A stretch of 32,971 bases of DNA. Origin: Lentisphaerota bacterium. Lineage in GTDB: Bacteria; Verrucomicrobiota; Lentisphaeria; Victivallales; Victivallaceae. The notes below the pieces were generated by a model. The model was not told the origin of the DNA and did not search any database. It saw only the letters and a program-made list of their open reading frames with translations. The stretch spans positions 1-32,971 of the forward strand of contig SUWL01000030.1 of assembly GCA_015061495.1 (NCBI GenBank). Direction: 5' to 3'. Positions within the stretch are counted from its first letter, which is position 1. Each line of letters starts with the position of its first letter. Below are positions 11,690 through 30,186 of this stretch, piece after piece. The position numbers and the translations under genes are program-made.

Positions 11690-13518
11690 TTGCCGCCTCC
11701 GGACAATTCAGATAATGACAGCGGCTTGAATCCCGCTTTGCTCGCCGCCCGTTTGACCGGGTCGATGGAGAGGTATTTCCAGCGGGTGAAACTGAAATCA
11801 TGCGGCACGCTGTTACCCAGCCAGTCGTAGCGCAGCACCCCGGAAACCGGGAAACCTTCGCAGATCCAGACACACCTGTCAAAAAGCAGTTTCACCATCT
11901 TCTCATAAAGAGCCGTCCGTTCCGGAGAATCCTCCATGGTCACGGCTTTTTCATACATCCGGTCAAATTCCGCATCGGCAAATCCGCAGTAGTTGCAGCT
12001 GCCGATGTTTCCGGAATAAAAGAGCTGCAGGAAGTTCAGTGCATCCGGGTAATCACCGATCCATGAATAACGGAAAAGCTGAAATTTGCCCCGCCGCAAT
12101 TTGTCGGAAAAACGCGGACGGCTGTTGAGCCGGGAAATCACCGTTATCCCCGCCTTGCTCCAGTCATCTGCTGCCAGTTCTCCCATCTGCCGGTGACCGG
12201 TGGTGGAACCTGCCTGATCAAAGGTCAACTCCAGTTTCTCTCCGGTCGCCGGATCGATACCGCCGGGATAACCTGCTTCAGCCAGCAACCGGGCGACCTC
12301 CGCACGGTCCGGGTGTTCTGCCGGGGGAGCGGGGATATGCCCCGCCACTCCGGGTGGTATCGGTCCTGCCGCCGCCAGCAGCATCCCGGAAGCATGGTCG
12401 ATCCGGCGGCGGATATCGTAAGCCTCGCGCAATGCCTGCCGCAGTTTCAGATTTTTACCCAGCACCGGATCCCGGAAGTTGAAACCCACATAGCGGATCT
12501 CAAATTCACTGCGCACATCCATTACCACCCGACGTGCCGCCAGTGCCGGAGAAAGCACTCCGCTGCCGGCAAGCGTTTCCTGATTATCCTTATCCAGAGC
12601 ATTGTAGTCCAGATTTCCCTGCAAAAAGAGCATCCACTGGGTCATGGGCTGACGGATCTGACTGATCACCACACCGTCGAGCAGCGGCAGACGGCGGGTG
12701 CGGTCTGCCGGATCTGCCGCCTGCGGGAAGTACTCCTCACGGTAGTCCGGATTTCTGGAAAAGCGCAAATGCAGATTGGGGATCCACTCATCGAGGACAA
12801 ATGGTCCGCTGCCGGCGGGATTGCGGGCGAGCTGTCCCCGTTTTTCAGCGGTCGCCGCCCGCCGGGAGACCACTGCGGCATTGGGCATGGCAAGCAAATA
12901 GAGGAAACCGGGATCGGGCTGATCCAGTGTCAATATGAATTTCCGGGGAGAAATGATCCTGATCCCGGGAATTTCCCGGTCGTAGACGGAGAGGTCACCT
13001 TTGGCGGTGTTTTCCGTGATTTTGCGGAACTCCCCGATGCCGCTGATCCGGTTGCGGTAGATCCAGTAGACCGGCGAATGGTTGCGGGCATCAGCGATCC
13101 GCAGGATGGAGAACTTCACATCCTGCGCCGTTACTTTACGGGAATCCCGGTCGGGAAATACCGGATCGGCGGCAAAGTAAAGATCATCCCGCAATTCGCA
13201 ACTGTAACTCCTGCCGTCGGCAGATATTTCCGGCATTTTGCTCAACATTGATGCCTGAAGTTTGTATGGGCGAGCCAGATAGTCATACTGCACGAGCGTA
13301 TCGTAGCACAGGGCGGTAAGATCCCGGCTCGCCAGATCATCGGCAAAAGCGGGGTCCAGACTTTTGACCGTCCCGCCGGCGGCACTGTACAAAATGCGCT
13401 GATCCGGCGATTCCTTCTCCGCTGCCGGAGAAGGACGGCAAAACCACACCGCCGCCGGGACAGCCGCCAGCAGCAGTGCGATGATTGCAGAGGTCAGGAT
13501 CAGCCGTTTGCGTTTCAT
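11686..13518 (-). CDS. oppA: Extracellular solute-binding protein, family 5 (OppA/DppA type)
   Basis: This 610-residue periplasmic binding protein of the peptide/oligopeptide ABC class starts with a basic N-terminus and a hydrophobic stretch (residues 6-26) that serves as signal peptide or membrane anchor; a Cys follows at about residue 27. Family 5 features include GTVKSLDPAFADD near the start of the mature domain, the DDLYFAADPVFPDRDSRKVTAQDVKFS segment, and a late lobe with YSGNIGSCNYCG. It is probably the ligand-capturing partner of the permease encoded directly downstream. Its ATG overlaps the rhaB stop (ATGA), with only weak Shine-Dalgarno character, so coupled translation is likely. 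The ligand may be an oligopeptide or glycan; sequence reading cannot decide. Confidence 0.88.
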   Translation of the reverse strand: MKRKRLILTSAIIALLLAAVPAAVWFCRPSPAAEKESPDQRILYSAAGGTVKSLDPAFADDLASRDLTALCYDTLVQYDYLARPYKLQASMLSKMPEISADGRSYSCELRDDLYFAADPVFPDRDSRKVTAQDVKFSILRIADARNHSPVYWIYRNRISGIGEFRKITENTAKGDLSVYDREIPGIRIISPRKFILTLDQPDPGFLYLLAMPNAAVVSRRAATAEKRGQLARNPAGSGPFVLDEWIPNLHLRFSRNPDYREEYFPQAADPADRTRRLPLLDGVVISQIRQPMTQWMLFLQGNLDYNALDKDNQETLAGSGVLSPALAARRVVMDVRSEFEIRYVGFNFRDPVLGKNLKLRQALREAYDIRRRIDHASGMLLAAAGPIPPGVAGHIPAPPAEHPDRAEVARLLAEAGYPGGIDPATGEKLELTFDQAGSTTGHRQMGELAADDWSKAGITVISRLNSRPRFSDKLRRGKFQLFRYSWIGDYPDALNFLQLFYSGNIGSCNYCGFADAEFDRMYEKAVTMEDSPERTALYEKMVKLLFDRCVWICEGFPVSGVLRYDWLGNSVPHDFSFTRWKYLSIDPVKRAASKAGFKPLSLSELSGGGK

Positions 13519-14993
13519 TTACCGGAAACAGCGTTGAATTTATCCGCGGCAGCGGCATATTTGGCAGCCATGGACGGATCAGGTTCAAACGTTTTGAGTG
13601 CAAATGAGTTGCGGATGACGTTGCGCACGGCGTCCAATCCGGCAAGTTCGCCTGCCGCCATTGCCTGCACCAGGATATTTCCGGCGGCAGTCGCTTCCAC
13701 CGGTCCGGCGACGACCCGGCGGTTGAGCGCGCTGGCGGCAAGTTCCATCAGAAATCCGTCTTTGGTACCGCCGCCGACCACATTCAAACAGGCGTAGGAG
13801 GTATCCAGCAATTTTTCAAACAACCCGAGTTTGACGCTGAAATAAAGTGCCAGACTGTCGTAAACCGCCCGGACGACTTCAGCATCGGAAACGTTTTCCC
13901 CCTGACCGGTGCGTTTGATAAATGCCCGGATATTGCCCGGCATATCTCCCGGAGCGGCAAATTCGGAACAGTTGGGATTGATGAAGTATTTGCACGGTTC
14001 ACTCTGGCGCGCCATATTCTCCATATCGTTGAATGAGAGGTTTCTGCCCGCTTCGTTCCAGACCCGGCGCAGCTCCTGAAACAGCCATGAACCCATGATG
14101 TTGGTCAGGAAACGGATCTTGCCGCCGACACCTCCCTCGTTGGTAATGGAAGCATTTTCGCTGTCGGCAGTCAATACCGGAACATCATTTTCCACGCCAA
14201 GCAGAGCCCAGGTACCGGCGGAGAGATACGCCCATTGACCTTCGGCAGGGGCAGGAGCCGCCGCCACGGCGCTGGCGGTATCATGGGAACCGCACTTGTA
14301 GATGGGGATGGGATCGCAGCCGAGCTGCGCACAAAGTTCCGCGCTGAGCATTCCGGCAGGAGTTCCGGCTTCCACGATCTCCGGGAAAATTTCCCGGGGC
14401 AGTCCCAGGCGGTCGATCAACTCCCAGTGCCAGCTGCGGCTTACCGGATCAAGCAGATTGGTGGTGGAACAAAAGGTGTATTCCGCCACCGGTTTGCCGC
14501 CCAGAGAGAGCGCAAGCGCATCGGGGATGGGCAGGAAAAAGGAGTCTTTGAAGTCTTCCGGATGTGCCTCCAGATGGGCGCACAACTGGTAGATGGTGTT
14601 CAAGGTCATGCACTGGATACCGGTGCAGCGGTAAAGTTCACTTTTAGAGATCTTCTGCCACACTTTTTCGGCGGCGGCGACTGTTCGCGGGTCCCGGTAG
14701 TTGTAGGGCAGACGGCGCATGGCGAGGGTCTTGCGGTCAAAGAAAACGTAATCCACGCCCCAGGTATCGATGGCGATGCCGTCAAGTTTCACGCCGGTTG
14801 CCAGAGCATTTTTCAAGCCGGTTTTCAACTCTTCGCAAAGCCGGGGATAATCCCAGAAAAAAGAGCCGTCTTTTTCGACCGGACCATTGGGGAAACGGTG
14901 AACTTCCCGCATCTCAAGTCTGCCGTTGTCCACACTGCCGATAATGGCGCGTCCACTGGATGCACCGAGGTCAAATGCCAGAAAATTTTTCAT
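13515..14993 (-). CDS. rhaB: Rhamnulokinase (FGGY carbohydrate kinase)
   Basis: RhaB phosphorylates L-rhamnulose at O1. The 492-residue product fits the family length. It begins with the ATP-binding segment AFDLGASSGRA (residues 6-16) and has DTWGVDYVFFD from residue 76, the GSHDTASAV catalytic region, and the C-terminal VVGGGTKDGFLMELAA segment. The reading frame is open for another 140 codons upstream, but that stretch overlaps hisA. The ATG at 14993, with AAGGG about 8 bases upstream and the family-typical N-terminus, is the real start. No rhamnose isomerase, aldolase or regulator lies nearby, so whether rhamnulose is the true substrate is open; the best specific match by motif is RhaB. 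Confidence 0.88.
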   Translation of the reverse strand: MKNFLAFDLGASSGRAIIGSVDNGRLEMREVHRFPNGPVEKDGSFFWDYPRLCEELKTGLKNALATGVKLDGIAIDTWGVDYVFFDRKTLAMRRLPYNYRDPRTVAAAEKVWQKISKSELYRCTGIQCMTLNTIYQLCAHLEAHPEDFKDSFFLPIPDALALSLGGKPVAEYTFCSTTNLLDPVSRSWHWELIDRLGLPREIFPEIVEAGTPAGMLSAELCAQLGCDPIPIYKCGSHDTASAVAAAPAPAEGQWAYLSAGTWALLGVENDVPVLTADSENASITNEGGVGGKIRFLTNIMGSWLFQELRRVWNEAGRNLSFNDMENMARQSEPCKYFINPNCSEFAAPGDMPGNIRAFIKRTGQGENVSDAEVVRAVYDSLALYFSVKLGLFEKLLDTSYACLNVVGGGTKDGFLMELAASALNRRVVAGPVEATAAGNILVQAMAAGELAGLDAVRNVIRNSFALKTFEPDPSMAAKYAAAADKFNAVSGK

Positions 14994-15015
14994 TTTCACA
15001 CCCTTGTAATTATGT

Positions 15016-15789
15016 TTATAGTTGTTTACTGTGACTGACAATAGTTTCAAAAGCGATCCTGCCGCCGAAAATATCCAGTGCCGAACCGATCGTATAGTCC
15101 ACTTTGCCTTTGCCGTGTTCTTCGATGAACCGGACATCCGCCAGCGAAGCGATGCCTCCGGCATAAACGCACTGCAGCGGTGAATATTCCGCGAGCATGG
15201 TGAGCAGTTCGCCGTCGATGCCGGAACATTTGCCTTCCACATCCACGGCATGGATGAGAAATTCGCAGCAGCTGTCAGCGAAACGTGCCAGAGTTGCGCC
15301 GTTGAGTTCCATACTGGTGAAGTTTTTCCACCGGTCAGTGACCACCATATAGCGGCCGTCGGGAGTTTTGCGGCAGGAAAGGTCAAGAATGATCCGTTCT
15401 TTGCCGACGGCACGGATCAGCTTACGCAGATTTTCCTCATAAAACTCCCCGTTGGCAAAGACGAAACTGGTGACGATCACCCCGCTGGCACCGGCGTCGA
15501 TAAAAGTACCGGCATTATCCGCATTGACTCCGCCGCCGAGCTGCAGCCCGCCGGGGTATGCCGCCAGAGCTTCCAGAGCGGCGGCATCGTTGCCGGACCC
15601 CAGACGGATGACATGACCGCCGGGCAGATCGTGTTTGCGGTAAAGTTCCGCATAGTAAGCGGGAGTTTCAGCGGAAACGAAGTTCGTCCGCAATCCGGCT
15701 TCGCCGCTGTCGGTATTCAGCGTACCGCCGACGATCTGTTTAACTTTGCCGTCATGCAGATCGATGCAGGGACGGAAGCGGGCTCTCAT
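15016..15789 (-). CDS. hisA: Phosphoribosylformimino-AICAR isomerase, eukaryotic type (HisA/HIS6)
   Basis: HisA catalyses the Amadori isomerisation of ProFAR in histidine synthesis. The 257-residue TIM-barrel protein reads much closer to the eukaryotic HIS6 subfamily than to ordinary bacterial HisA. Shared segments include CIDLHDGKVKQIVGGTL at the N-terminus, TNFVS, YYAELY, HVIRLG, QLGGGVN, DLSCRKTPDGRY, FLIHAVDVEGKCSGID, VYAGGIAS and GSALDIFGG. The first catalytic Asp is Asp10; the second lies in the DVEG segment. ATG 15789 is preferred over TTG 15795 because GGAGGAG is correctly spaced (8 bases) only for the ATG. It begins 2 bases after the preceding stop. No other his genes are in the window. 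Confidence 0.9.
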   Translation of the reverse strand: MRARFRPCIDLHDGKVKQIVGGTLNTDSGEAGLRTNFVSAETPAYYAELYRKHDLPGGHVIRLGSGNDAAALEALAAYPGGLQLGGGVNADNAGTFIDAGASGVIVTSFVFANGEFYEENLRKLIRAVGKERIILDLSCRKTPDGRYMVVTDRWKNFTSMELNGATLARFADSCCEFLIHAVDVEGKCSGIDGELLTMLAEYSPLQCVYAGGIASLADVRFIEEHGKGKVDYTIGSALDIFGGRIAFETIVSHSKQL

Positions 15790-21364: not shown

Positions 21365-23302
21365 ATGGCAAAAGGAACACTTGTTCAGAAAATCATCGCC
21401 GCCCATCTGGTTTCCGGCGACCCCTCCAAAGATTCTCAACTGCTCATCCGGATCGACCAGACCCTGACACAGGATGCCACCGGCACCATGGCTTATCTGG
21501 AACTTGAAGCGATGAAAACCGGCAAAGTCGCCACCGAGTTGTCCGTCTCTTACGTCGATCACAACATGATGCAGAACGGCCCGGAAAACCGCAACGACCA
21601 CCTCTATCTGCAGAGTGTTGCCGCCGAAAAAGGGGTGATCTTCTCTCCTCCCGGTAATGGTATCTGCCACCAGCTCCATCTGGAACGCTTCGGCAAACCC
21701 GGCAAAACTCTGATCGGTTCTGACAGCCACACCCCCACCGGCGGCGGCATCGGCATGATCGCCATCGGTGCCGGTGGTCTGGATGTTGCTCTGGCAATGG
21801 CGGGACAGCCATTCACCATTCCTGCTCCCAGGATCGTCGGAGTGAAACTCACCGGCAAACTCCGCCCGTGGGTCGCCGCCAAAGATGTGATTTTGAAACT
21901 TTTGAGCATCCTCACGACCAAAGGCAATGTCGGATCCATCGTGGAATACTTCGGTCCGGGCGTGGCGGATTTGAGCGTCCCCCAGCGTGCCACGATCACC
22001 AATATGGGTGCGGAACTGGGAGTTACCACCAGTATTTTCCCATCCGATGAGCGCACCAGAGAATTTCTCCGCCGCCAGAACCGGGAAGCCGATTACACTG
22101 CACTTGCCGCAGATGACGATGCCGAATACGACCGGGTCGTGGAGATCGACCTTGACACGCTTGAACCGCTTGCCGCCTGTCCTTCCAGTCCGGATAATAT
22201 CAAATCCATCCGGGAACTGGCGGGGAAAAAGGTCGGGCAGGTGCTGGTCGGCAGCTGTACCAACGGCGGTTACCGTGACCTCGCACTGGTCGCTTCTGCG
22301 CTCAAAGGACGCAAAATCCACCCCGATGTGACCCTCGGCATCGCTCCGGGCAGCCGTCCGGTGCTGGAAATGCTCTGCGCCAACGGCATGCTGGGCGATC
22401 TGGTTGCCGCCGGAGCCAGAATTCTGGAAGTCGGCTGCGGCCCCTGTATCGGTCAGGGTCAAAGTCCGGCTGATGATACCATCACCGTCCGGACATTCAA
22501 CCGCAACTTTGCCGGCCGCAGCGGCACCAAAGGCGACCAGTCTTATCTGGTCAGCCCCGAAACTGCCGTTGCAGCCGCCATCACCGGAGAATTTATCGAC
22601 CCCCGCGATCTGGGAATCGAATTTCCGGAGATCGCCGAACCGGAATTTTACCTTGCCGACGATGAACACTTCCAGAAAGGTGAACCGGGCAAAGGCATCA
22701 TCCGCAAACCGACCATCGGTGAGCCGCCCAGCAACAGTGCCCTCCCCGAAAATATCGACGGCGTGGTCGTCATCAAAGTCGGTGACAAAATCACCACCGA
22801 CCACATCATGCCTGCCGGTGTCCACCTGAAATTGCGCAGCAACATCCCCGCCTACAGCAAAGTGGTGTTTGAGTGCTTCAATGAAGCCGGAAAACCCGGA
22901 TTCGCCGAACGTGCCGCCGCAGTGCGGGATGCCGGTAAACACGGGATCATCATCGGCAGAGACAGCTACGGTCAGGGGTCCAGCCGTGAACACGCGGCGA
23001 TCTGTCCGATGTATCTGGGCATCAAAGTCGTTGCTGCCCTTGCCATTGAACGCATCCACCGTGCCAACCTGATCAACTTCGGCATTGTGCCGCTGATTTT
23101 CAAAAATCCGGCTGATTATGAACTTATCGAAGAAAACGACTCTTTGCAATTCATCTCTCTGCCTTCCCAGCTCGCCCCCGGCAGCGAAGTCACCGGTATT
23201 CTGGTCAAAGCTGACGGCAGTAAAAAAGAGCTGGTATTCACCCATCCGCTCTCGGCAAATGATATCCGTCTGGTCAAAGCCGGCGGCAGATTGAATTGTT
23301 GA
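21365..23302 (+). CDS. acn: Aconitate hydratase, short (Aquifex-like) type
   Basis: Aconitase interconverts citrate and isocitrate using a [4Fe-4S] cluster. The 645-residue product is shorter than classical AcnA (about 890) and reads like the short type that resembles LeuC fused to LeuD. The cluster cysteines are Cys298 (GSCTNGG) and Cys358 and Cys361 (CGPC). The substrate segment SDSHTPTGGGIGM and the swivel-domain motif GRDSYGQGSSREHAA are clear. AAGGAAC precedes the ATG, 40 bases after rodA. An isopropylmalate or homoaconitate activity cannot be fully excluded, but aconitase is the better fit. Confidence 0.92.
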   Translation: MAKGTLVQKIIAAHLVSGDPSKDSQLLIRIDQTLTQDATGTMAYLELEAMKTGKVATELSVSYVDHNMMQNGPENRNDHLYLQSVAAEKGVIFSPPGNGICHQLHLERFGKPGKTLIGSDSHTPTGGGIGMIAIGAGGLDVALAMAGQPFTIPAPRIVGVKLTGKLRPWVAAKDVILKLLSILTTKGNVGSIVEYFGPGVADLSVPQRATITNMGAELGVTTSIFPSDERTREFLRRQNREADYTALAADDDAEYDRVVEIDLDTLEPLAACPSSPDNIKSIRELAGKKVGQVLVGSCTNGGYRDLALVASALKGRKIHPDVTLGIAPGSRPVLEMLCANGMLGDLVAAGARILEVGCGPCIGQGQSPADDTITVRTFNRNFAGRSGTKGDQSYLVSPETAVAAAITGEFIDPRDLGIEFPEIAEPEFYLADDEHFQKGEPGKGIIRKPTIGEPPSNSALPENIDGVVVIKVGDKITTDHIMPAGVHLKLRSNIPAYSKVVFECFNEAGKPGFAERAAAVRDAGKHGIIIGRDSYGQGSSREHAAICPMYLGIKVVAALAIERIHRANLINFGIVPLIFKNPADYELIEENDSLQFISLPSQLAPGSEVTGILVKADGSKKELVFTHPLSANDIRLVKAGGRLNC

Positions 23303-23309
23303 GGTGTTG

Positions 23310-26300
23310 ATGGCAAAAAGAGTTTTTTCCGGCTCTGACATATTTCCCGCCGCCGCGGCAGCGCGCGGTCTGGCGGGATTCCGCAATGAAAACGGCTTGA
23401 GTGATCTGGGCAGGATCCTGCTGGTTCTGCCGGGACAGCTTGCCAAAAAGAGTGTTCTGCAGCTGCTGCCGGATCACTTCCCGGCAGGACTGCTTACGCC
23501 GCAGCTGCTCACGCCCGGAACGCTGTTGAATTTCGGCAGGGAGGAATTTTGTGCCGTCCCCGCCATTGCCGAAGAGATCCTCTGGGGCAAAGTCCTCACT
23601 GCCGCTGCCGCAAGGCAAAAATATTTCCGGGAGGTATTTCCCGGCGGCAGGGTACCGGTGGACTGCTTTGCGGCATCCCGAAACCTGCGGACATTCCGGG
23701 ATGAATTGACTGCCAACGGGTTCTCCATTGCCGATGCGGCAAAAGAGCTGGGCAGCCGGGGGGAAAAACTTGCCGAACTGGAACAACTCTACCTCCGGGA
23801 ACTTGCCAATGCCGGATTCACCGATAAACTGGAATATGACCGGCAATCCGTCACCGATGTCGCCGCCTTTGCCGATATCGACCGGATCATCCTCGCCGGA
23901 TTGCCCGACCTGCCCCGGATGCTCAAACTCAAACTGGAGAATATCGACCGGCAATTCCCCGGCAAAATCGAAATCTGGATCAACGATGACGAAGTAAATG
24001 CCGGTGATTATGACGGCTGGGGCGTGCCCATCCCGGAGGTGTGGCAGGAAAAAACTCTGCCGCTGCCGCTGGAAAACATCCATCCGGCACTCGACCCGAT
24101 CGATGCGGCACGTCAGGCGATGACCCTGTCCGGTGATCCGGAAAACTTCTCCCCGGAAAACTGTACCATCGTGTTGAGCGATCCGTCGCTTTACCCGGAT
24201 TTTGCCGGAGAATTTTCCCGGCTGCAGACCAAATCCGGCAAGATCACAGTCGCCGACCCGGCGGGCGTTCCATTCGGCAAACTGCGGATCTGCCGCCTGC
24301 TCAATGCCCTGCTCGCATTACTGGAAAAACGCCGTGATTATCAGGCGGCATCCGAACTTTTCCGGGAGGATGATTTCCTTGCGGCGGCGATCGGCGAATC
24401 CGGCAGCAGCAGTAAAATACTCGCATTGCTGGATGAATTCCAACAGCAATATTACCCCGATGATCTCGACAGTGCCAAACTGAAATTCACCGACAGATTT
24501 GCTCCGCTGCAGCAACTTGTCCAACTGGCGGAAAAATACCTGCAGTTTTTCGACGGAATGCCGCTGACCGGATTTCTGCGTAAAGTACTTACCCGGACAT
24601 TTTTTCACGTTTCCGGCAGTGATGAATTTCTGCAGGTCGCCTTTGCCGGGGAGTGTGATCTTTTCAACGAAAAGCTCGCTGAACTGGAGGCACTTCCGGA
24701 AAAAACCGCCGCCATTCCAGGCAAAATCAGCCTGCTGAAAATATTACTGCGCAACTGCCGTGAACTGCCGGTGAATATCCATACTCCGGCGGATGCCCTG
24801 ACCTTTGAAGGGCGTCTGGAAATGCCTTTTCTCACCTCTCGCCGGGTGATTTTCTGCGGGATGAATGAGGAGTATTTCCCGGATAAGATCGATATCACTC
24901 CCTATCTGACCGACACGCTGCGCAAGAAACTTGGCATGCGCAGCAATCAGGAAACCCTTGCCCGGTCGCTCTGTCATCTGTTCAATGTCGCAATGCCCCG
25001 GCAAAACGGCGACTTGCAAATACTGGTGTTGAAGTCCGACAGTAAAAAATCGGCGCTGTCACCATCCCGGATACTGTTCAGCGGCAAAGATCTGCCGCAA
25101 GATGAACTGCTTGCCCGGTGCGGCAAACTTTTTGCCGATCCGCCGGTCCCGCCGACGCTCGACACGATCCAGGCGAACCGGATATTCCGGCTTAAACCGG
25201 AACTGCGTTACCGCACTGCAAATGAGGGCAAACCCCTTTTCGCAGTGACCGATTTCGATCAATATCTGCGCAACCCCTTTTCCTACTTCTGGCAAAGGGT
25301 GCTTAAAAGCGATGCGGTGGATTATGAGATCATGGAACCCGACCACCGGTCCGAGGGGACCTTTTGCCACAAAGCATTTGAATTGCTCGGCACGGAACAT
25401 TTTTCCGGCGAAAAACAACTGCTGGAAACCCTGCTTGCCCGCTTCGATGAAGTTCTTACCGGACACTTCGGCACCCTGCCCGCCATGGTCAGGATCTACG
25501 CCGACAATATGAAACAGCGCTTCCATTATGCTGCTGAATTGCTTTACCGGGAGCAGACCGCCGGTTTTGAAGTGCTGGCAACCGAATACCGCTTCGGCGG
25601 GGAAGCGGACTTTTTGGAATACGCCGGAGCCGTTTTCCGCGGCAGCATCGACCGGATCGAATACAGCCGCACGGAAAAGATCATCCGCATCATTGATATC
25701 AAAACCGGTGCCCCGCACGGTGTCATCGCCGCCCACTGCAAATACAATAAAAAAAGCGGTTCCTACACTTTCAGCAAAATCCAGCTGCCGCTCTATGCCA
25801 TTTTACTGCGCCATGACCCGTGGTTCAAAGAACACCTCTGCCCGGAAATCGACGACTGCACCATCGAATGCGGCTACCTCAATCTGCCTGCCGCCGTCAC
25901 CGATACCGTGCTGGATATCTGGAAGTCCGGTGATCCGGCTGATCCGCTGGCTTTGAATAATGTCACCGCCGCCGCGGAAAATGAAATTTTACGCATCATT
26001 GATGAAATCTGCAAATCCCGGGATCATCAGGTTTTCTGCGATCCGGATTCGATCAACGAACCACTGCTGCTGCCCGATGCTGCCTCGGCATTGACCGGGA
26101 TCGACTGGATCTGCGACCGGCAGGGTACTGAAGTCAGAGAAGTTCCGGAAACCATCCCGGATGAGCAGAAAATAATGCTGCCGGTCAACCGGGCAGGAAA
26201 CAGCAGAAAAGCCGGAAATACCCGCTGCTGCACCTGTCCGGTAACGGATTGCCCCTGCCGCAACGGAGATTGCAGCAGTTGTGCGTCATTCAACGGCTTC

Positions 26301-29300
26301 AAGGCTTTCAACATCATCACCGCTTCGGCGGGGACCGGCAAGACCTTCGCTTTGGCATCACGATTCGTACAGCTGATGGATTACGGGGTCAAACCGGAAA
26401 ACATCCTGGCGATCACTTTCACCCGCAAAGCCACCGGTGAGATCCTCGACCGCATCGTCCGCAGATTGTGCAGTATGATCGAAAAACCCGATAAAGCGGA
26501 AAACCGCTGTATCCGGATCGCCATGCCCCGCCGTCTGGAACTGCTCCGGCAGCTGCTCTGCTGCAGCAGCAAGGCTCCCAGGATCAGCACGATCGACAGT
26601 TTCTTTATGAATCTGCTCAAAGTTTTCGCCCCGGAACTGGGCATCTGGGGCGAAATTTCCATGCTGGATGAATTTGATTTGCGTCCGGTAAAAGAGACGA
26701 TCCGGGCGTGGGTAAACACCATTTCCGATGGAGAGGAACTCAATACTTTGCGGGAGCTGATCAAAGATGCCAATTCATCCAGACAGATCAGCTTTTTTGC
26801 CGCCATGCAGGAACTTGCCAAAAAAATCTACCCCTGTTATCTGCTCCAACTCAAAAAAATGCCCGACGGTTCATTCCCGCAGCTGGAGTATGCGCCGTGG
26901 CAGCCGCAAAGTTCGGATGTCATGACTCCGGAACTCTGCATCTGCACCGAAAATATCCTGATGGATCAGGCAGAATCATACGATGAACAGCTCAAGCAGA
27001 AAACCTGTACCGCCGATGCCAGAAGCCTCAAAGCGCTGATCAAAAGAATGAGATCTTTAAGTTCGGAACTGGCAAAAAGCCGCCACGGGGAACTTTTCGG
27101 TAAAATTGCCGAAGATACCAAAAAACTGTTCGCCGCCATCAACGAAAACAATCTGCCGGGCTGGTGCGATGGACCGGATGATGATGAATTGCTCTACATC
27201 CGCGGCAAAGATAAAAATCCGGAAAAAGCCCGGAACAAAGATATCATTTTTCCGCCGGAAACCGCCCGTGCCGTCCGATTGGCAATGCGGCACATCCGGG
27301 CACTGTCTTATCTGCAGGTGCGCCGGAAAAACCGGGCGGTATTCGCCCTGATGCAGAAATTTGACCGGGTCTATACGGAATTGATCCGCAATTCCGGCAA
27401 GCTGACCTTTGACGATCCTCCGGCACTGCTCTGCCGGAGCGATCCGGAAACCGGCGAATTGATCCTCGGTCCGGGCGATCATTCTCTGGAAATGCGCATG
27501 GATGCCCGCATTTCCCACTATATGTTCGATGAATTTCAGGACACCAGTGACATCCAGCTGCTTTCACTGCTGCCGCTGCTCCGGGAACTTTTTGCCAAAG
27601 CCGACAGCGACGGATTCCGGTCATTTTTCTGCGTGGGCGACATCAAACAAGCCATTTATCTGTGGCGCAGCGGCAATCCGCAGCTCTTTGATTACCTCGC
27701 CGCCCAGGTGCGTCCGATCACCGGGGATCAGTATGATCCGTGCGATTCATTGAGTTGTTCCTACCGCTCGTCCCAGGTGGTTCTGGACACGGTCAATGCG
27801 GTTTTTGCCGACAACTGCCCCAGTGAACAGCCGTACTTCAAAGAAGCTCTGGCAAAGATGAAATTCCTGCCGCACACCAGTGCCGTGGAACTGGACGGCC
27901 ATACGGCAGTGATCGAAGTTGCCAAAGACAGCTCCTCCGAAAAACGTCATCTGACGGAAAAATCCCGGATCATTGCGCAGATCCTCAATGAGATCCAGCC
28001 ATTCAAAAGGGGATTGACCGCAGGTATCCTCGTGCGTACCAACGATGTGGCAAAGGAGATTTATGAATCTCTGCGGACATTCACCGATCTGCCGGCATCG
28101 GTGGACGGCAAAATATCACCGTCCCAGAGTATGTCTTTCAACGTGTTCAGGGAACTGCTGATCCTTGCCGGCCATCCGGATGATGATGAAGCGGTGAACT
28201 TCTTTGATTCGCTCACGTTTGCTTCAGAGAATGATCCTGCCCGGCACCTGACCGGAGAAGAGCTTGCGGAAAAACTGGGATTTGCCGCCGGAATACCGCT
28301 GGATGAAGCGGTAAGGAAAGAACTTTTCTGCAATGGCGTTTACGGAATGGCACGCCGATTCGTCGATGCATTTGCCGGGGAAGTCACCGCCGGAGAAAGG
28401 CGTTATCTGGAGATCCTGCTCCGGCTGGCAAGAGATTTCAACGGTTCTGCCGCCGATTTCATCAGCCATGCCGGACATGCCGGAGAGTCCGGCAATGCGC
28501 TCACCGGAACCATCCAGATCATGACCATCCACAAATCCAAAGGGTTGGAGTTCGATATCGTTTTCCTGCCGGATATGGAAAATCACCAGGGCAACAACTC
28601 TTCACTTACTCCGGAATTCGCCCCGGTTGATATGGCAGATTGCCAATATGCGGATGATCTGCCGTCCCCGCAATGGGCAAGTTATCTGCCGCCAGCTGAA
28701 ATAAGATACAATATTGACCCGTTCCGGCAGCATGATGAAGAACAGAGTATCGGAGATGCCTTCGCCAAATCCTGCAATTTGTACGTGGCAATGACCCGGG
28801 CAAAACATGCGCTTTACATGCTGCTGTCCTGCGGTAAAACTTCCACGACACTGGCTCCGGATATGCTTATCAAAGAACGTCTTTCCCGCTACCGCTGCGC
28901 CCCCGGAGATCAGCAGTGGCTGGAATCATTGAGCAATGACGGGTATCCGGCAGTGCTTCACTTTTCCCACGGCGACCGCCTCTGGGCGGGAAAAAATTAC
29001 CCCTTTGCCAATCAGACGGCAAGTACGGAAAAATTCACGCTGCCCGGTTTTATCCCGGCACCGAAGACGGTCATTGCCACAGCTTCCGGCACGGAAAAAC
29101 ACCACTTCACCGGAGATCCGGCACAGCGGTTCGCACCATTATCCGGCAAAACCGGCGGCACGCTCATCCATGAATTGTTCGCCAAACTGGAATATGTCGA
29201 TGAAAATTTCGATGCGGCAAACTTCAGCCGGGATCTGCCGCCGGATGCCGCAGAAGTATTCTGCAGTGCCCTGACCAACGGTTCTCCCATCCGGGAACTG

Positions 29301-29609
29301 CTCAAACGTCCGGATCAGGAGTGCGAATTGTGGCTGGAACGCCGCTTCCTGCTGAAAAACGCCGCTCAACAACTGGTCCCGGGAGCCTTTGACCGGGTGC
29401 AGATATTCCGGGACAACGGCAAAATCACCCAAGCGGAGATCATCGACTACAAAAGCGACCGGATCAAATCTGCAGCCGGATTCGAAATCTATTTTGAGCA
29501 GTTGAGAAGTTACCGCAATTCGCTCTCCATTCTGCTCGATTTGCCGGAAGAACAGATCTCCTGCAAAATTTGTGCCCTGCGTTTAAATGAAATTATTGAG
29601 GTGAAATAA
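23310..29609 (+). CDS. addBA: Single-chain AddB-AddA-type helicase/nuclease fusion
   Basis: This 2099-residue protein joins what are normally two subunits of the AddAB recombinational repair complex. The N-terminal half is AddB-like: a helicase-like domain without a Walker A, the segment RRVIFCGMNEEYFP, and a RecB-family nuclease with His687, Asp781, Asp796 and Lys798 (DIKTG) followed by a Q-x2-x-Y type segment. A seven-cysteine junction lies at residues 973-991. The C-terminal half is AddA-like: Walker A ASAGTGKT (1005-1012), DEFQDT (1407-1412), GDIKQAIYLWR, SCSYRSS, MTIHKSKGLEFD and NLYVAMTRAKHAL. A second nuclease follows with His1954, Asp2028, Asp2046 and Lys2048 (DYKS). The expected job is end resection of double-strand breaks to load RecA. 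ATG 23310 follows GAGG at 5 bases, 7 bases after acn. The frame is unbroken. Confidence 0.93.
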   Translation: MAKRVFSGSDIFPAAAAARGLAGFRNENGLSDLGRILLVLPGQLAKKSVLQLLPDHFPAGLLTPQLLTPGTLLNFGREEFCAVPAIAEEILWGKVLTAAAARQKYFREVFPGGRVPVDCFAASRNLRTFRDELTANGFSIADAAKELGSRGEKLAELEQLYLRELANAGFTDKLEYDRQSVTDVAAFADIDRIILAGLPDLPRMLKLKLENIDRQFPGKIEIWINDDEVNAGDYDGWGVPIPEVWQEKTLPLPLENIHPALDPIDAARQAMTLSGDPENFSPENCTIVLSDPSLYPDFAGEFSRLQTKSGKITVADPAGVPFGKLRICRLLNALLALLEKRRDYQAASELFREDDFLAAAIGESGSSSKILALLDEFQQQYYPDDLDSAKLKFTDRFAPLQQLVQLAEKYLQFFDGMPLTGFLRKVLTRTFFHVSGSDEFLQVAFAGECDLFNEKLAELEALPEKTAAIPGKISLLKILLRNCRELPVNIHTPADALTFEGRLEMPFLTSRRVIFCGMNEEYFPDKIDITPYLTDTLRKKLGMRSNQETLARSLCHLFNVAMPRQNGDLQILVLKSDSKKSALSPSRILFSGKDLPQDELLARCGKLFADPPVPPTLDTIQANRIFRLKPELRYRTANEGKPLFAVTDFDQYLRNPFSYFWQRVLKSDAVDYEIMEPDHRSEGTFCHKAFELLGTEHFSGEKQLLETLLARFDEVLTGHFGTLPAMVRIYADNMKQRFHYAAELLYREQTAGFEVLATEYRFGGEADFLEYAGAVFRGSIDRIEYSRTEKIIRIIDIKTGAPHGVIAAHCKYNKKSGSYTFSKIQLPLYAILLRHDPWFKEHLCPEIDDCTIECGYLNLPAAVTDTVLDIWKSGDPADPLALNNVTAAAENEILRIIDEICKSRDHQVFCDPDSINEPLLLPDAASALTGIDWICDRQGTEVREVPETIPDEQKIMLPVNRAGNSRKAGNTRCCTCPVTDCPCRNGDCSSCASFNGFKAFNIITASAGTGKTFALASRFVQLMDYGVKPENILAITFTRKATGEILDRIVRRLCSMIEKPDKAENRCIRIAMPRRLELLRQLLCCSSKAPRISTIDSFFMNLLKVFAPELGIWGEISMLDEFDLRPVKETIRAWVNTISDGEELNTLRELIKDANSSRQISFFAAMQELAKKIYPCYLLQLKKMPDGSFPQLEYAPWQPQSSDVMTPELCICTENILMDQAESYDEQLKQKTCTADARSLKALIKRMRSLSSELAKSRHGELFGKIAEDTKKLFAAINENNLPGWCDGPDDDELLYIRGKDKNPEKARNKDIIFPPETARAVRLAMRHIRALSYLQVRRKNRAVFALMQKFDRVYTELIRNSGKLTFDDPPALLCRSDPETGELILGPGDHSLEMRMDARISHYMFDEFQDTSDIQLLSLLPLLRELFAKADSDGFRSFFCVGDIKQAIYLWRSGNPQLFDYLAAQVRPITGDQYDPCDSLSCSYRSSQVVLDTVNAVFADNCPSEQPYFKEALAKMKFLPHTSAVELDGHTAVIEVAKDSSSEKRHLTEKSRIIAQILNEIQPFKRGLTAGILVRTNDVAKEIYESLRTFTDLPASVDGKISPSQSMSFNVFRELLILAGHPDDDEAVNFFDSLTFASENDPARHLTGEELAEKLGFAAGIPLDEAVRKELFCNGVYGMARRFVDAFAGEVTAGERRYLEILLRLARDFNGSAADFISHAGHAGESGNALTGTIQIMTIHKSKGLEFDIVFLPDMENHQGNNSSLTPEFAPVDMADCQYADDLPSPQWASYLPPAEIRYNIDPFRQHDEEQSIGDAFAKSCNLYVAMTRAKHALYMLLSCGKTSTTLAPDMLIKERLSRYRCAPGDQQWLESLSNDGYPAVLHFSHGDRLWAGKNYPFANQTASTEKFTLPGFIPAPKTVIATASGTEKHHFTGDPAQRFAPLSGKTGGTLIHELFAKLEYVDENFDAANFSRDLPPDAAEVFCSALTNGSPIRELLKRPDQECELWLERRFLLKNAAQQLVPGAFDRVQIFRDNGKITQAEIIDYKSDRIKSAAGFEIYFEQLRSYRNSLSILLDLPEEQISCKICALRLNEIIEVK

Positions 29610-29658
29610 GATCATATTTCCGCAGCACGGCAATGTCACAAACCGCCCGGAAAAGGTG

Positions 29659-29695
29659 TTTTTTTCAAAAAAAATGCGTTTTTTTGCACTTTTTC
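29659..29695. other. Phased A/T tracts between addBA and the receiver gene
   Basis: The sequence runs T7, C, A8, TGCG, T7, GCAC, T5. The A8 and second T7 can pair around a TGCG loop, but the stem is pure A-T. It could be a curved upstream promoter element for the promoter at 29708 or a weak terminator for addBA. No GC-rich terminator hairpin is seen in the 163-base gap 29610-29772. Confidence 0.4.
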
Positions 29696-29707
29696 AGCCA
29701 TAAGGAC

Positions 29708-29736
29708 TTGCGTTTTCGGGTTTTTGTGCGTATAAT
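29708..29736 (+). promoter_or_regulatory. Strong sigma-70-type promoter for the receiver/HNH genes
   Basis: TTGCGT (29708-29713) and a perfect TATAAT (29731-29736) are separated by 17 bases, with A/T tracts just upstream. Transcription would begin near 29743, about 30 bases before the ATG. Confidence 0.7.
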
Positions 29737-29772
29737 ATGCGGCGAACAACTATTTTTACAGGAATGATACGC

Positions 29773-30186
29773 ATGACAGAAAACTTTTTGCCCGGTGGCA
29801 ATGAAACGATCCTGATCGTCGATGACCATGAAACGATCTGGGATTTTCTGATCGATGCTTTGAGCGAATTGGGCTATTCCGTACTCCTTGCCGAAAACGG
29901 CTTGGATGCAGTTGAGATCTATGAAGCCAATCCGGCACAGATCGATCTGGTGCTGCTGGATATGATCATGCCCAAATCCGGCGGGCATCAGACTTTTTTG
30001 CGCCTTAAAGCAATTGATCCCCAAGTCAAAGTGCTGCTGTCCAGCGGCTTTGTTTCCGAAAACGAAGTCGCAGATCTGCTGGAACAGGGCGCTTGCGGTT
30101 TTCTGCCCAAACCCCACCGGCTGCCGGTGGTGCTCAAAGAGATCCGCCGCGTGCTGGACGCCGGGAAAGATGCCGCCAATGGATGA
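29773..30186 (+). CDS. Stand-alone response-regulator receiver domain
   Basis: This 137-residue CheY-like protein has the full phosphorylation site: acidic pair Asp17-Asp18 (LIVDDHE), phospho-acceptor Asp63 (LLDMIMP), Ser90/Ser91 (LLSSGF) and Lys113 (FLPKP). There is no output domain. The sequence resembles receiver domains attached to hybrid histidine kinases (ETILIVDD, DLVLLDMIMPKSGG, VKVLLSSGF), so it may be a phosphorelay shuttle. ATG 29773 is chosen because AGGA lies 9 bases upstream; the ATG at 29764 is too close to it. No kinase gene is in the window. The HNH gene starts inside its last codons, so the two are probably co-expressed. Confidence 0.88.
   Translation: MTENFLPGGNETILIVDDHETIWDFLIDALSELGYSVLLAENGLDAVEIYEANPAQIDLVLLDMIMPKSGGHQTFLRLKAIDPQVKVLLSSGFVSENEVADLLEQGACGFLPKPHRLPVVLKEIRRVLDAGKDAANG

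Follow-up and report, generated by a model that had tools for sequence, protein, structure and literature searches.

AddAB and RecBCD, textbook examples of multi-subunit machines, perform the same task, the processing of DNA ends at breaks ahead of repair. AddAB normally consists of two polypeptides, often encoded by adjacent genes in the order addB-addA, and acts as an ATP-dependent dsDNA exonuclease under the control of a Chi sequence. In B. subtilis, AddB carries an N-terminal Walker A motif, and AddB of this type holds an Fe-S cluster through four cysteines, one before and three after the nuclease core (CPF/CxxC motifs). AdnAB of mycobacteria comprises two chains with a motor P-loop in both subunits. 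Ordinary AddAB combines two nucleases with one motor (PMC4027173), and AddAB and RecBCD show a complementary distribution (PMC1193525).

In the window analysed here, a 32,971-nucleotide contig of a Lentisphaerota bacterium, both AddAB subunits are encoded by a single gene (Table 1). A preliminary description had reported an uninterrupted AddB-then-AddA frame of 2099 residues, and this was borne out by a frame scan, which found zero internal stops between the ATG and the stop codon, and by Pfam domains. An alternative GTG start at 23304 makes the frame longer by 2 aa. Numbered on this 2101-aa form, the Pfam matches are PDDEXK_1 (647-861), UvrD-helicase (1002-1465) and UvrD_C (1734-1841). The helicase-like part of the AddB half is presumed to be the hotspot-scanning part. 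In 8/10 genomes carrying a fused gene, it lies between the same aconitase and response-regulator genes, and the aconitase and fused genes are probably co-transcribed.

Table 1. Features of the fused addB-addA locus in the window.
Feature	Position	Strand	Residues	Remarks
Aconitase gene	21365..23302	+		Gap of 7 bases to the fused gene; conserved neighbour
addB-addA fused gene	23310..29609	+	2099 aa	From frame, Pfam and relatives
Helicase-like region of AddB half	23310..25229	+	~1-640	N-terminal Walker A absent
AddB nuclease, PD-(D/E)XK	25230..25919	+	~641-870	D781, D796, K798
Linker	26109..26222	+	934-971	38 aa
Cys-rich module	26223..26312	+	972-1001	CxC...CxC and extra Cys
SF1/UvrD motor of AddA half	26313..28859	+	~1002-1850	Walker A ASAGTGKT, 1005-1012
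AddA nuclease	29157..29606	+	~1950-2099	D2028, D2046, K2048
Response-regulator receiver gene	29737..30186	+		Conserved neighbour downstream

Both nuclease sites are intact and the Walker A motif is confined to the AddA half. The catalytic residues assigned to the AddB nuclease are invariant in all 23 rows of the AddB alignment. Those assigned to the AddA nuclease, which correspond to AddA-half residues 1057, 1075 and 1077, are at least 90% conserved in an alignment of 22 AddA rows, two of which end before these positions, and invariant in the 8-row set of fused proteins. The absence of a Walker A motif from the AddB half, also part of the preliminary description, holds across the alignment, the N-terminal pattern being missing in 23/23 AddB rows. 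One row (L030) has a pattern match at residue 452, away from the P-loop position. Not recognized previously was the lack of the usual Fe-S cysteines: in the AddB half of the window, Asn occupies the CPF site and the last 140 aa contain no CxxC, a motif likewise absent from this stretch of AddB in 23/23 rows. The combination of two nucleases with one motor is indeed present, but it is the make-up of ordinary AddAB; in this respect, the novelty therefore resides in the covalent joining.

The proposed structural comparison, made with B. subtilis AddAB, was successful for the AddB half and, owing to a poor model, only for local parts of the AddA half. The best five listed of 50 matches to the predicted AddB-half model are all B. 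subtilis AddB, pointing to an AddB fold. Searched against PDB, the AddB half retrieved nothing as a single sequence and one chance match as a profile. Its best AddB model in NCBIfam is TIGR02786 (addB_alphas; residues 502-810, E 3.4e-14), which is distant, scoring 51.9 bits where the cut-off is 486.5. The AddA half, used as a 22-row profile, has B. subtilis AddA as its top PDB match (E 1.2e-45); as a single sequence, UvrD chain 9dci (E 5.2e-12) outscores B. subtilis AddA (4.8e-10). Its predicted model matches in local parts, including the nuclease, with a large rmsd in full-length rows, and since mean pLDDT is 53.7, the AddA-half fold is supported in these parts and not as a whole.

The two halves are joined by a Pro/Glu/Lys-rich linker of 38-49 aa in 10/10 fused forms, with a mean pairwise identity of 22%. 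No such linker is found between the AddB end and the AddA start in the four split pairs compared. Directly before the AddA Walker A motif lies a Cys-rich module (mean pairwise identity 61%), possibly a metal site. All 14 AddA proteins of the lineage have it, whether fused or split, and all 20 AddA proteins read from elsewhere lack it; the idea that it was created by the fusion was dropped, since it is also N-terminal in AddA of four readable split relatives. Two AddA proteins from outside the lineage (G261 and G358) align into the module columns, and a third (G188) nearly does, but upon direct reading the pattern is absent in all three. Scattered cysteines precede Walker A in G261 (five) and G188 (four). 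Assignment of the module to a known domain was rejected: no Pfam family matched at E values up to 5 and pLDDT is 30-36 in the predicted model, so that no fold is claimed for it. In the narrow literature examined, no mention of it was met.

The preliminary description called for mapping of split and fused forms among relatives. The fused frame is uninterrupted in 10/34 genomes of one Lentisphaeria genus, and the nearest relatives are split. The ten distinct proteins measure 2082-2115 aa, the other nine being 41-50% identical to that of the window; an eleventh frame (G011), whose protein is identical to that of G020, was left out of the count. Split relatives within the genus keep the addB-addA order, with adjacent or overlapping genes, and in one of them (G015) addB, a TGA, two codons and the ATG of addA follow each other in one frame. 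Fused forms make up one clade (support 100/100), a single change is enough in every one of 200 bootstrap trees (100%), and a quick tree likewise places them in one clade beside the split ones. The suggested origin by operon fusion is thus corroborated, the same genes being split in the same order in relatives and the fused clade adjoining split forms. From these sequences, the fusion seems to have arisen once. An apparent independent fusion in G051, initially an open frame of 2225, proved to be two frames with about 43 codons and stops in between. Unusually fast evolution of the fusion was also considered. Fused proteins are 44-65% identical at 91-96% aconitase identity (21 pairs, 7 genomes; 9 pairs with G032 or G023 aconitase left out), and RecC proteins of four RecBCD-bearing relatives are 51-80% identical at 89-97% aconitase identity (6 pairs; the RecC frame of G002 is short, 933 codons). 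As RecC diverges similarly, this speed is common to both systems and not special to the fusion.

Although the gene had rightly been read as an AddB-AddA fusion, alternation with RecBCD had been overlooked, as had the Cys-rich module. A survey of 197 genomes of the class (cut-offs E 1e-20 for AddB and 1e-10 for RecC) revealed AddB in 55, RecC in 127 and neither in 15; none of the 182 genomes with AddB or RecC carries both, so that the complementary distribution holds in this class as well. Fisher p-values for this survey ignore the shared descent of the genomes, many of which are incomplete. Within the genus, AddB is missing in 19/34 genomes, 17 of which have RecC and two neither, and the window's genome (89% complete) gave no match to RecC (PF04257). 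Since AddB and RecC never occur together, resection of DNA ends in this cell is very probably the task of the fused protein. The genus also includes one species (G019) with a RecC-RecB fusion, in parallel with that of AddB and AddA. Evidence for in-situ exchange of the two systems between the aconitase and response-regulator genes was sought and not obtained: these are not neighbours in RecBCD genomes, yet in G002, G017 and G029, RecC and the response regulator share a contig at a distance of 15-19 kb, and in G029 this contig also has the aconitase gene. A relative of the fused clade (G033, 76% complete) yielded neither system and has different genes after aconitase.

We consider it very likely that the locus encodes a natural single-chain AddAB helicase-nuclease, in which a single event in the clade's ancestor united the addB and addA genes of one operon. 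That a sequencing or assembly error deleted a stop codon is hardly credible: the window does come from a fragmented genome (123 contigs), but the fusion recurs in ten genomes as ten distinct frames, which rules out an artefact, and each fused form has a linker of similar length that is missing from the split pairs. A defence-type helicase-nuclease, Gabija-like or other, instead of a resection enzyme is very improbable. Among PADLOC models, those of GajB and RTasHel hit the UvrD motor, with E values down to 9.5e-24 (25 of 31 matching families listed), yet the matches listed are pieces of this common motor, the nearest relatives are AddA by profile and AddB by model, AddB and RecC exclude each other, and in most fused genomes the locus is flanked by the same pair of ordinary genes.

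More weight, though still little, is given to two working chains being made from the fused gene, either because translation also starts internally ahead of AddA or because a protease cleaves the linker, which we judge quite unlikely. The divergent, Pro/Glu/Lys-rich linker is probably exposed and contains an in-frame ATG at position 23 in the window. However, in-frame starts lie at differing places among the fused genes, 2/10 of which (G020 and G009) lack any ATG, GTG or TTG in the stretch that begins 20 codons upstream of the linker and ends at Walker A, and linker length is held within narrow bounds. Moreover, AGGA, GGAG and GAGG are absent from the 16 bases preceding the internal ATG of the window, whereas its addB start has GAGG; this is weak evidence, as 8/10 addB starts also lack such a motif in 20 bases.

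For a single-chain AddAB, homology with the B. subtilis enzyme suggests how the protein might work. With about 40 flexible linker residues tying the C-terminal nuclease of AddB to the Cys-rich N-terminus of AddA, the chain would fold back into the usual AddAB shape and bind DNA at a broken end. Pulling on the 3' strand, the AddA motor would then split the duplex, and each nuclease would take part in cutting the two emerging strands. The 3' strand would meanwhile be searched for a Chi-like hotspot by the helicase-like part of AddB, after which the 3' tail would be retained for RecA. If one chain persists in the cell, the tether would make assembly intramolecular and fix a 1:1 stoichiometry, with both nucleases bound to one motor. 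These activities and the Chi response are what we would expect of such an enzyme, and the Cys-rich module may hold a metal. A bolder proposal, which we regard as unlikely, holds that a single-chain class of resection enzymes, with the scanning subunit tied to the motor, was reached independently in both rival systems of one genus, AddB-AddA (ten species) and RecC-RecB (G019), that the AddB-AddA seam carries a new Cys module which binds metal and replaces the DNA-end gating of the lost AddB Fe-S cluster, and that phage inhibitors directed at complexes of this type drove both fusion and repeated swaps.

What appears to be new is the one-chain form of a well-known enzyme, in ten sampled species of uncultured gut bacteria; a limited search, mainly of openly available literature, brought up no description of such a fusion in nature. 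Such a protein offers a form of the enzyme that cannot lose a subunit, ready for use in single-molecule and structural studies, and allows the need for the AddB-AddA contact to open during the Chi response to be tested. Likewise, the alternation of AddAB and RecBCD within one genus, where each is fused in some species, provides a direct test of what drives the swap.

Among known systems, Gabija has GajB beside a GajA gene; GajB models match the UvrD motor only (among matches listed), and the neighbours here are aconitase and a response regulator. Unlike AdnAB, the AddB half has no N-terminal P-loop. RecBCD alternates with AddAB among genomes and has its own fusion, but its RecC was not found in the window's genome. 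The alphaproteobacterial AddB family is a distant relative of the AddB half. Split AddAB of the genus (G001, G005, G015, G026) shares lineage, gene order and Cys-rich module with the fused form and differs in having two genes and no linker. B. subtilis AddAB (PDB 3u4q, 3u44, 4ceh, 4cei, 4cej) has two chains, where here there is one with a Cys-rich module before AddA, and its AddB has the Walker A and CPF/CxxC cysteines that the AddB half lacks. In common with AddAB in general, the fused protein has a helicase-like AddB fold followed by a PD-(D/E)XK nuclease, then an SF1/UvrD motor with a RecB-type nuclease behind it (from Pfam, the PDB profile, conserved residues and fold matches), in the usual though not universal addB-addA order kept by fusion and split relatives alike. 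Because it is one polypeptide from a single frame instead of two, it is classed as a variant of AddAB and not as a plain member.

The preliminary description of one uninterrupted frame carrying AddB and AddA was borne out. Frame reading gave 2099 codons without a stop at window 23310-29609, with Pfam and NCBIfam domains of both halves (see table). Residues 502-810 match the NCBIfam model addB_alphas (E 3.4e-14, far under the cut-off), and the second half of the protein matches RecB-like/AddA NCBIfam models (best E 7.1e-60, likewise far under the cut-offs). The gene is single-copy in its genome (2.67 Mb in 123 contigs, 89% complete), where the next match is just a short fragment resembling UvrD. 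The fused AddB-AddA is real, and represents a single-chain variant of AddAB with the cysteine-rich segment (Cys module) of its lineage.

Features of the fused protein and of the RecC-RecB loci
Feature	Position	Strand	Remarks
PDDEXK_1	residues 647-861		Pfam; numbering from GTG two codons upstream
UvrD-helicase	residues 1002-1465		Pfam; numbering from GTG two codons upstream
UvrD_C	residues 1734-1841		Pfam; numbering from GTG two codons upstream
Cys module	window 26223-26312	+	lineage-specific
RecC-RecB frame	L074:1910-8110	-	genome G019, contig C192
recC / recB	L045:6700-7000	+	genome G032; same frame, TAA and one codon between

Split and fused forms were mapped, as had been proposed, for the genus, the class and a phylum sample. 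A protein search returned nine loci, eight of them full-length fused matches, with Lentisphaerae/Lentisphaeria metagenome-assembled genomes as named relatives (three from sheep colon); two of the eight, L014 and L016, encode an identical protein, and the ninth locus is a distant Parabacteroides helicase. By AddB profile search, 15 of the 34 genomes of the genus bear AddB, ten in a frame of 2083-2118 codons and five in split form (G001, G005, G006, G015 and G026). AddB occurs in 55/197 genomes of the class, where fused frames are confined to those ten. In the phylum sample, AddB was found in 185/387 genomes and AddA in 173/377 (E 1e-80), and every fused frame among the matches listed belongs to this genus. 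Two long AddA frames from other families, of 1812 codons (G263:C28:12393-15518) and 1766 codons (G351:C342:14060-17215), contain extra sequence, and AddB lies in a separate, shorter frame in both genomes (1011 and 1129 codons, respectively). Two different fused genes were found in genome G011, and the product of one is identical to the G020 protein (loci L003 and L004), which suggests mixed metagenome bins.

The fused forms constitute one clade of ten species, in line with the addB-addA fusion originally described, with split relatives adjoining. A tree was built from AddB and AddA concatenated in 22 rows, ten fused and 12 split (Cys module columns excluded, and G006 omitted because its AddA start was unreadable). 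In it the fused forms are monophyletic with support 100/100, and a single change between split and fused was obtained in 100% of 200 bootstrap trees; a quick tree also gave one clade. Nearest to the clade are G005/G026 (95/96) and next G001/G015, all split. In G015, the addB TGA is followed two codons downstream, in the same frame, by the addA ATG; in G001, a 20-base gap separates the genes, out of frame. Between the last shared residue of AddB and the Cys module, all ten fused proteins carry a linker of 38-49 residues (mean 43.1, s.d. 3.6), rich in Pro, Glu and Lys, with a mean identity of 22% versus 45-49% in the four main domains. Removal of a single stop codon would therefore not have been enough for the join. 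The fused genes have no common in-frame internal start, and G020 and G009 have none at all within the stretch examined.

Directly preceding the AddA Walker A motif in the window protein is RCCTCPVTDCPCRNGDCSSCASFNGF. The pattern CxC-x(3-9)-CxC, with 5-8 Cys in total before Walker A, is present in 14/14 AddA of the lineage (ten fused; split G001, G005, G015 and G026), and direct reading found it in none of 20 AddA outside it. These comprised eight others in the alignment, nine further members of the class (from 18 stretches, nine without visible Walker A being set aside, likewise L032 of G006) and three from the phylum AddA search, chosen since their match reached or neared the module columns. 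The module predates the fusion. It is 61% identical among fused forms, the highest conservation of the seven regions compared, has no Pfam match and lies in a low-confidence region of the predicted structure; we regard it as a putative metal site. In the AddB half, Asn occupies the site where iron-sulphur AddB has Cys (CPF), a motif present there in 7/9 AddB rows outside the lineage, and CxxC near the AddB C-terminal end is absent from 23/23 rows. Both sites are presumably the cluster positions of iron-sulphur AddB. Such a cluster is reported for B. subtilis AddB (PMC4716839).

The fused gene lies between aconitase and response regulator genes in 8/10 fused genomes, G016 and G009 being the exceptions. 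Comparing window 21365-30186 with L014, L015, L017 and L019-L021, aconitase is 91-96% identical and the adjoining fused AddB-AddA 44-65%. RecC of related species also evolves fast. In three genomes (G002:C28, G017:C26, G029:C20), a distance of 15-19 kb separates RecC from the response regulator found beside the fused gene in other species, a hint of a shared region, short of adjacency. Elsewhere in the window, the TIGR02627 rhamnulokinase match of the 632-aa frame at 13515-15413 (-) begins at residue 145, and a wrongly placed start site may account for the first 140 residues.

AddAB and RecBCD are described as complementary in distribution (PMC1193525). When the window's genome is counted together with the 59 sampled genomes most closely related to it, 23 carry only AddAB, 34 carry only RecC, none carries the two together and three have neither (G003, G033, G040); in the class, the respective counts for AddB and RecC are 55, 127, 0 and 15 of 197 (Fisher p 2e-35, kinship ignored). 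Aconitase from 33 genomes was used for a tree serving as a single-gene proxy for the species tree; it requires four changes of the RecBCD label within the genus, and well-supported branches force three of these. Several replacements of one system by the other thus seem to have taken place in the genus, with single-chain AddAB in one clade. The fused clade is sister to a RecBCD-only clade, and G033 is nested within the former.

A parallel to the AddB-AddA fusion is found in one RecBCD genome of the genus, G019, where RecC and RecB share a 2066-codon frame, open at the contig end, with PF04257, RecC_C, UvrD-helicase and PDDEXK_1 matches. Downstream, a 541-aa SF1 helicase with a RecD-like SH3 match is probably RecD. 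As this is the sole RecC frame exceeding 1500 codons among 127 RecC-bearing genomes, the fusion rests on one contig. G032, which the aconitase tree places with G019 in a well-supported trio, is one step short of fusion.

The plain reading of why the chains were joined is intramolecular assembly and fixed stoichiometry. Phage proteins are reported to act on such complexes, with RecBCD examples (PMC9836394), and resistance to them would be a guess at a further advantage.

The enzyme class is already known, and the one-chain form of AddAB is apparently undescribed as far as a limited literature search reaches. B. subtilis AddAB is described as having a single SF1A motor, with a RecB-family nuclease at the end of each of its two strand channels and Chi bound by the helicase-like region of AddB (PMC4027173, PMC4824097); a latch between the Chi domain of AddB and the motor of AddA is believed to open once Chi is recognised (PMC4824097). 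By homology, the fused enzyme would act likewise, the helicase-like region of its AddB half being the candidate Chi-binding part, and a flexible linker between the AddB nuclease and the AddA N-terminus should not forbid latch opening. Compared with B. subtilis AddAB, the fusion has kept the domains for the motor, two-nuclease and Chi-binding steps alike.
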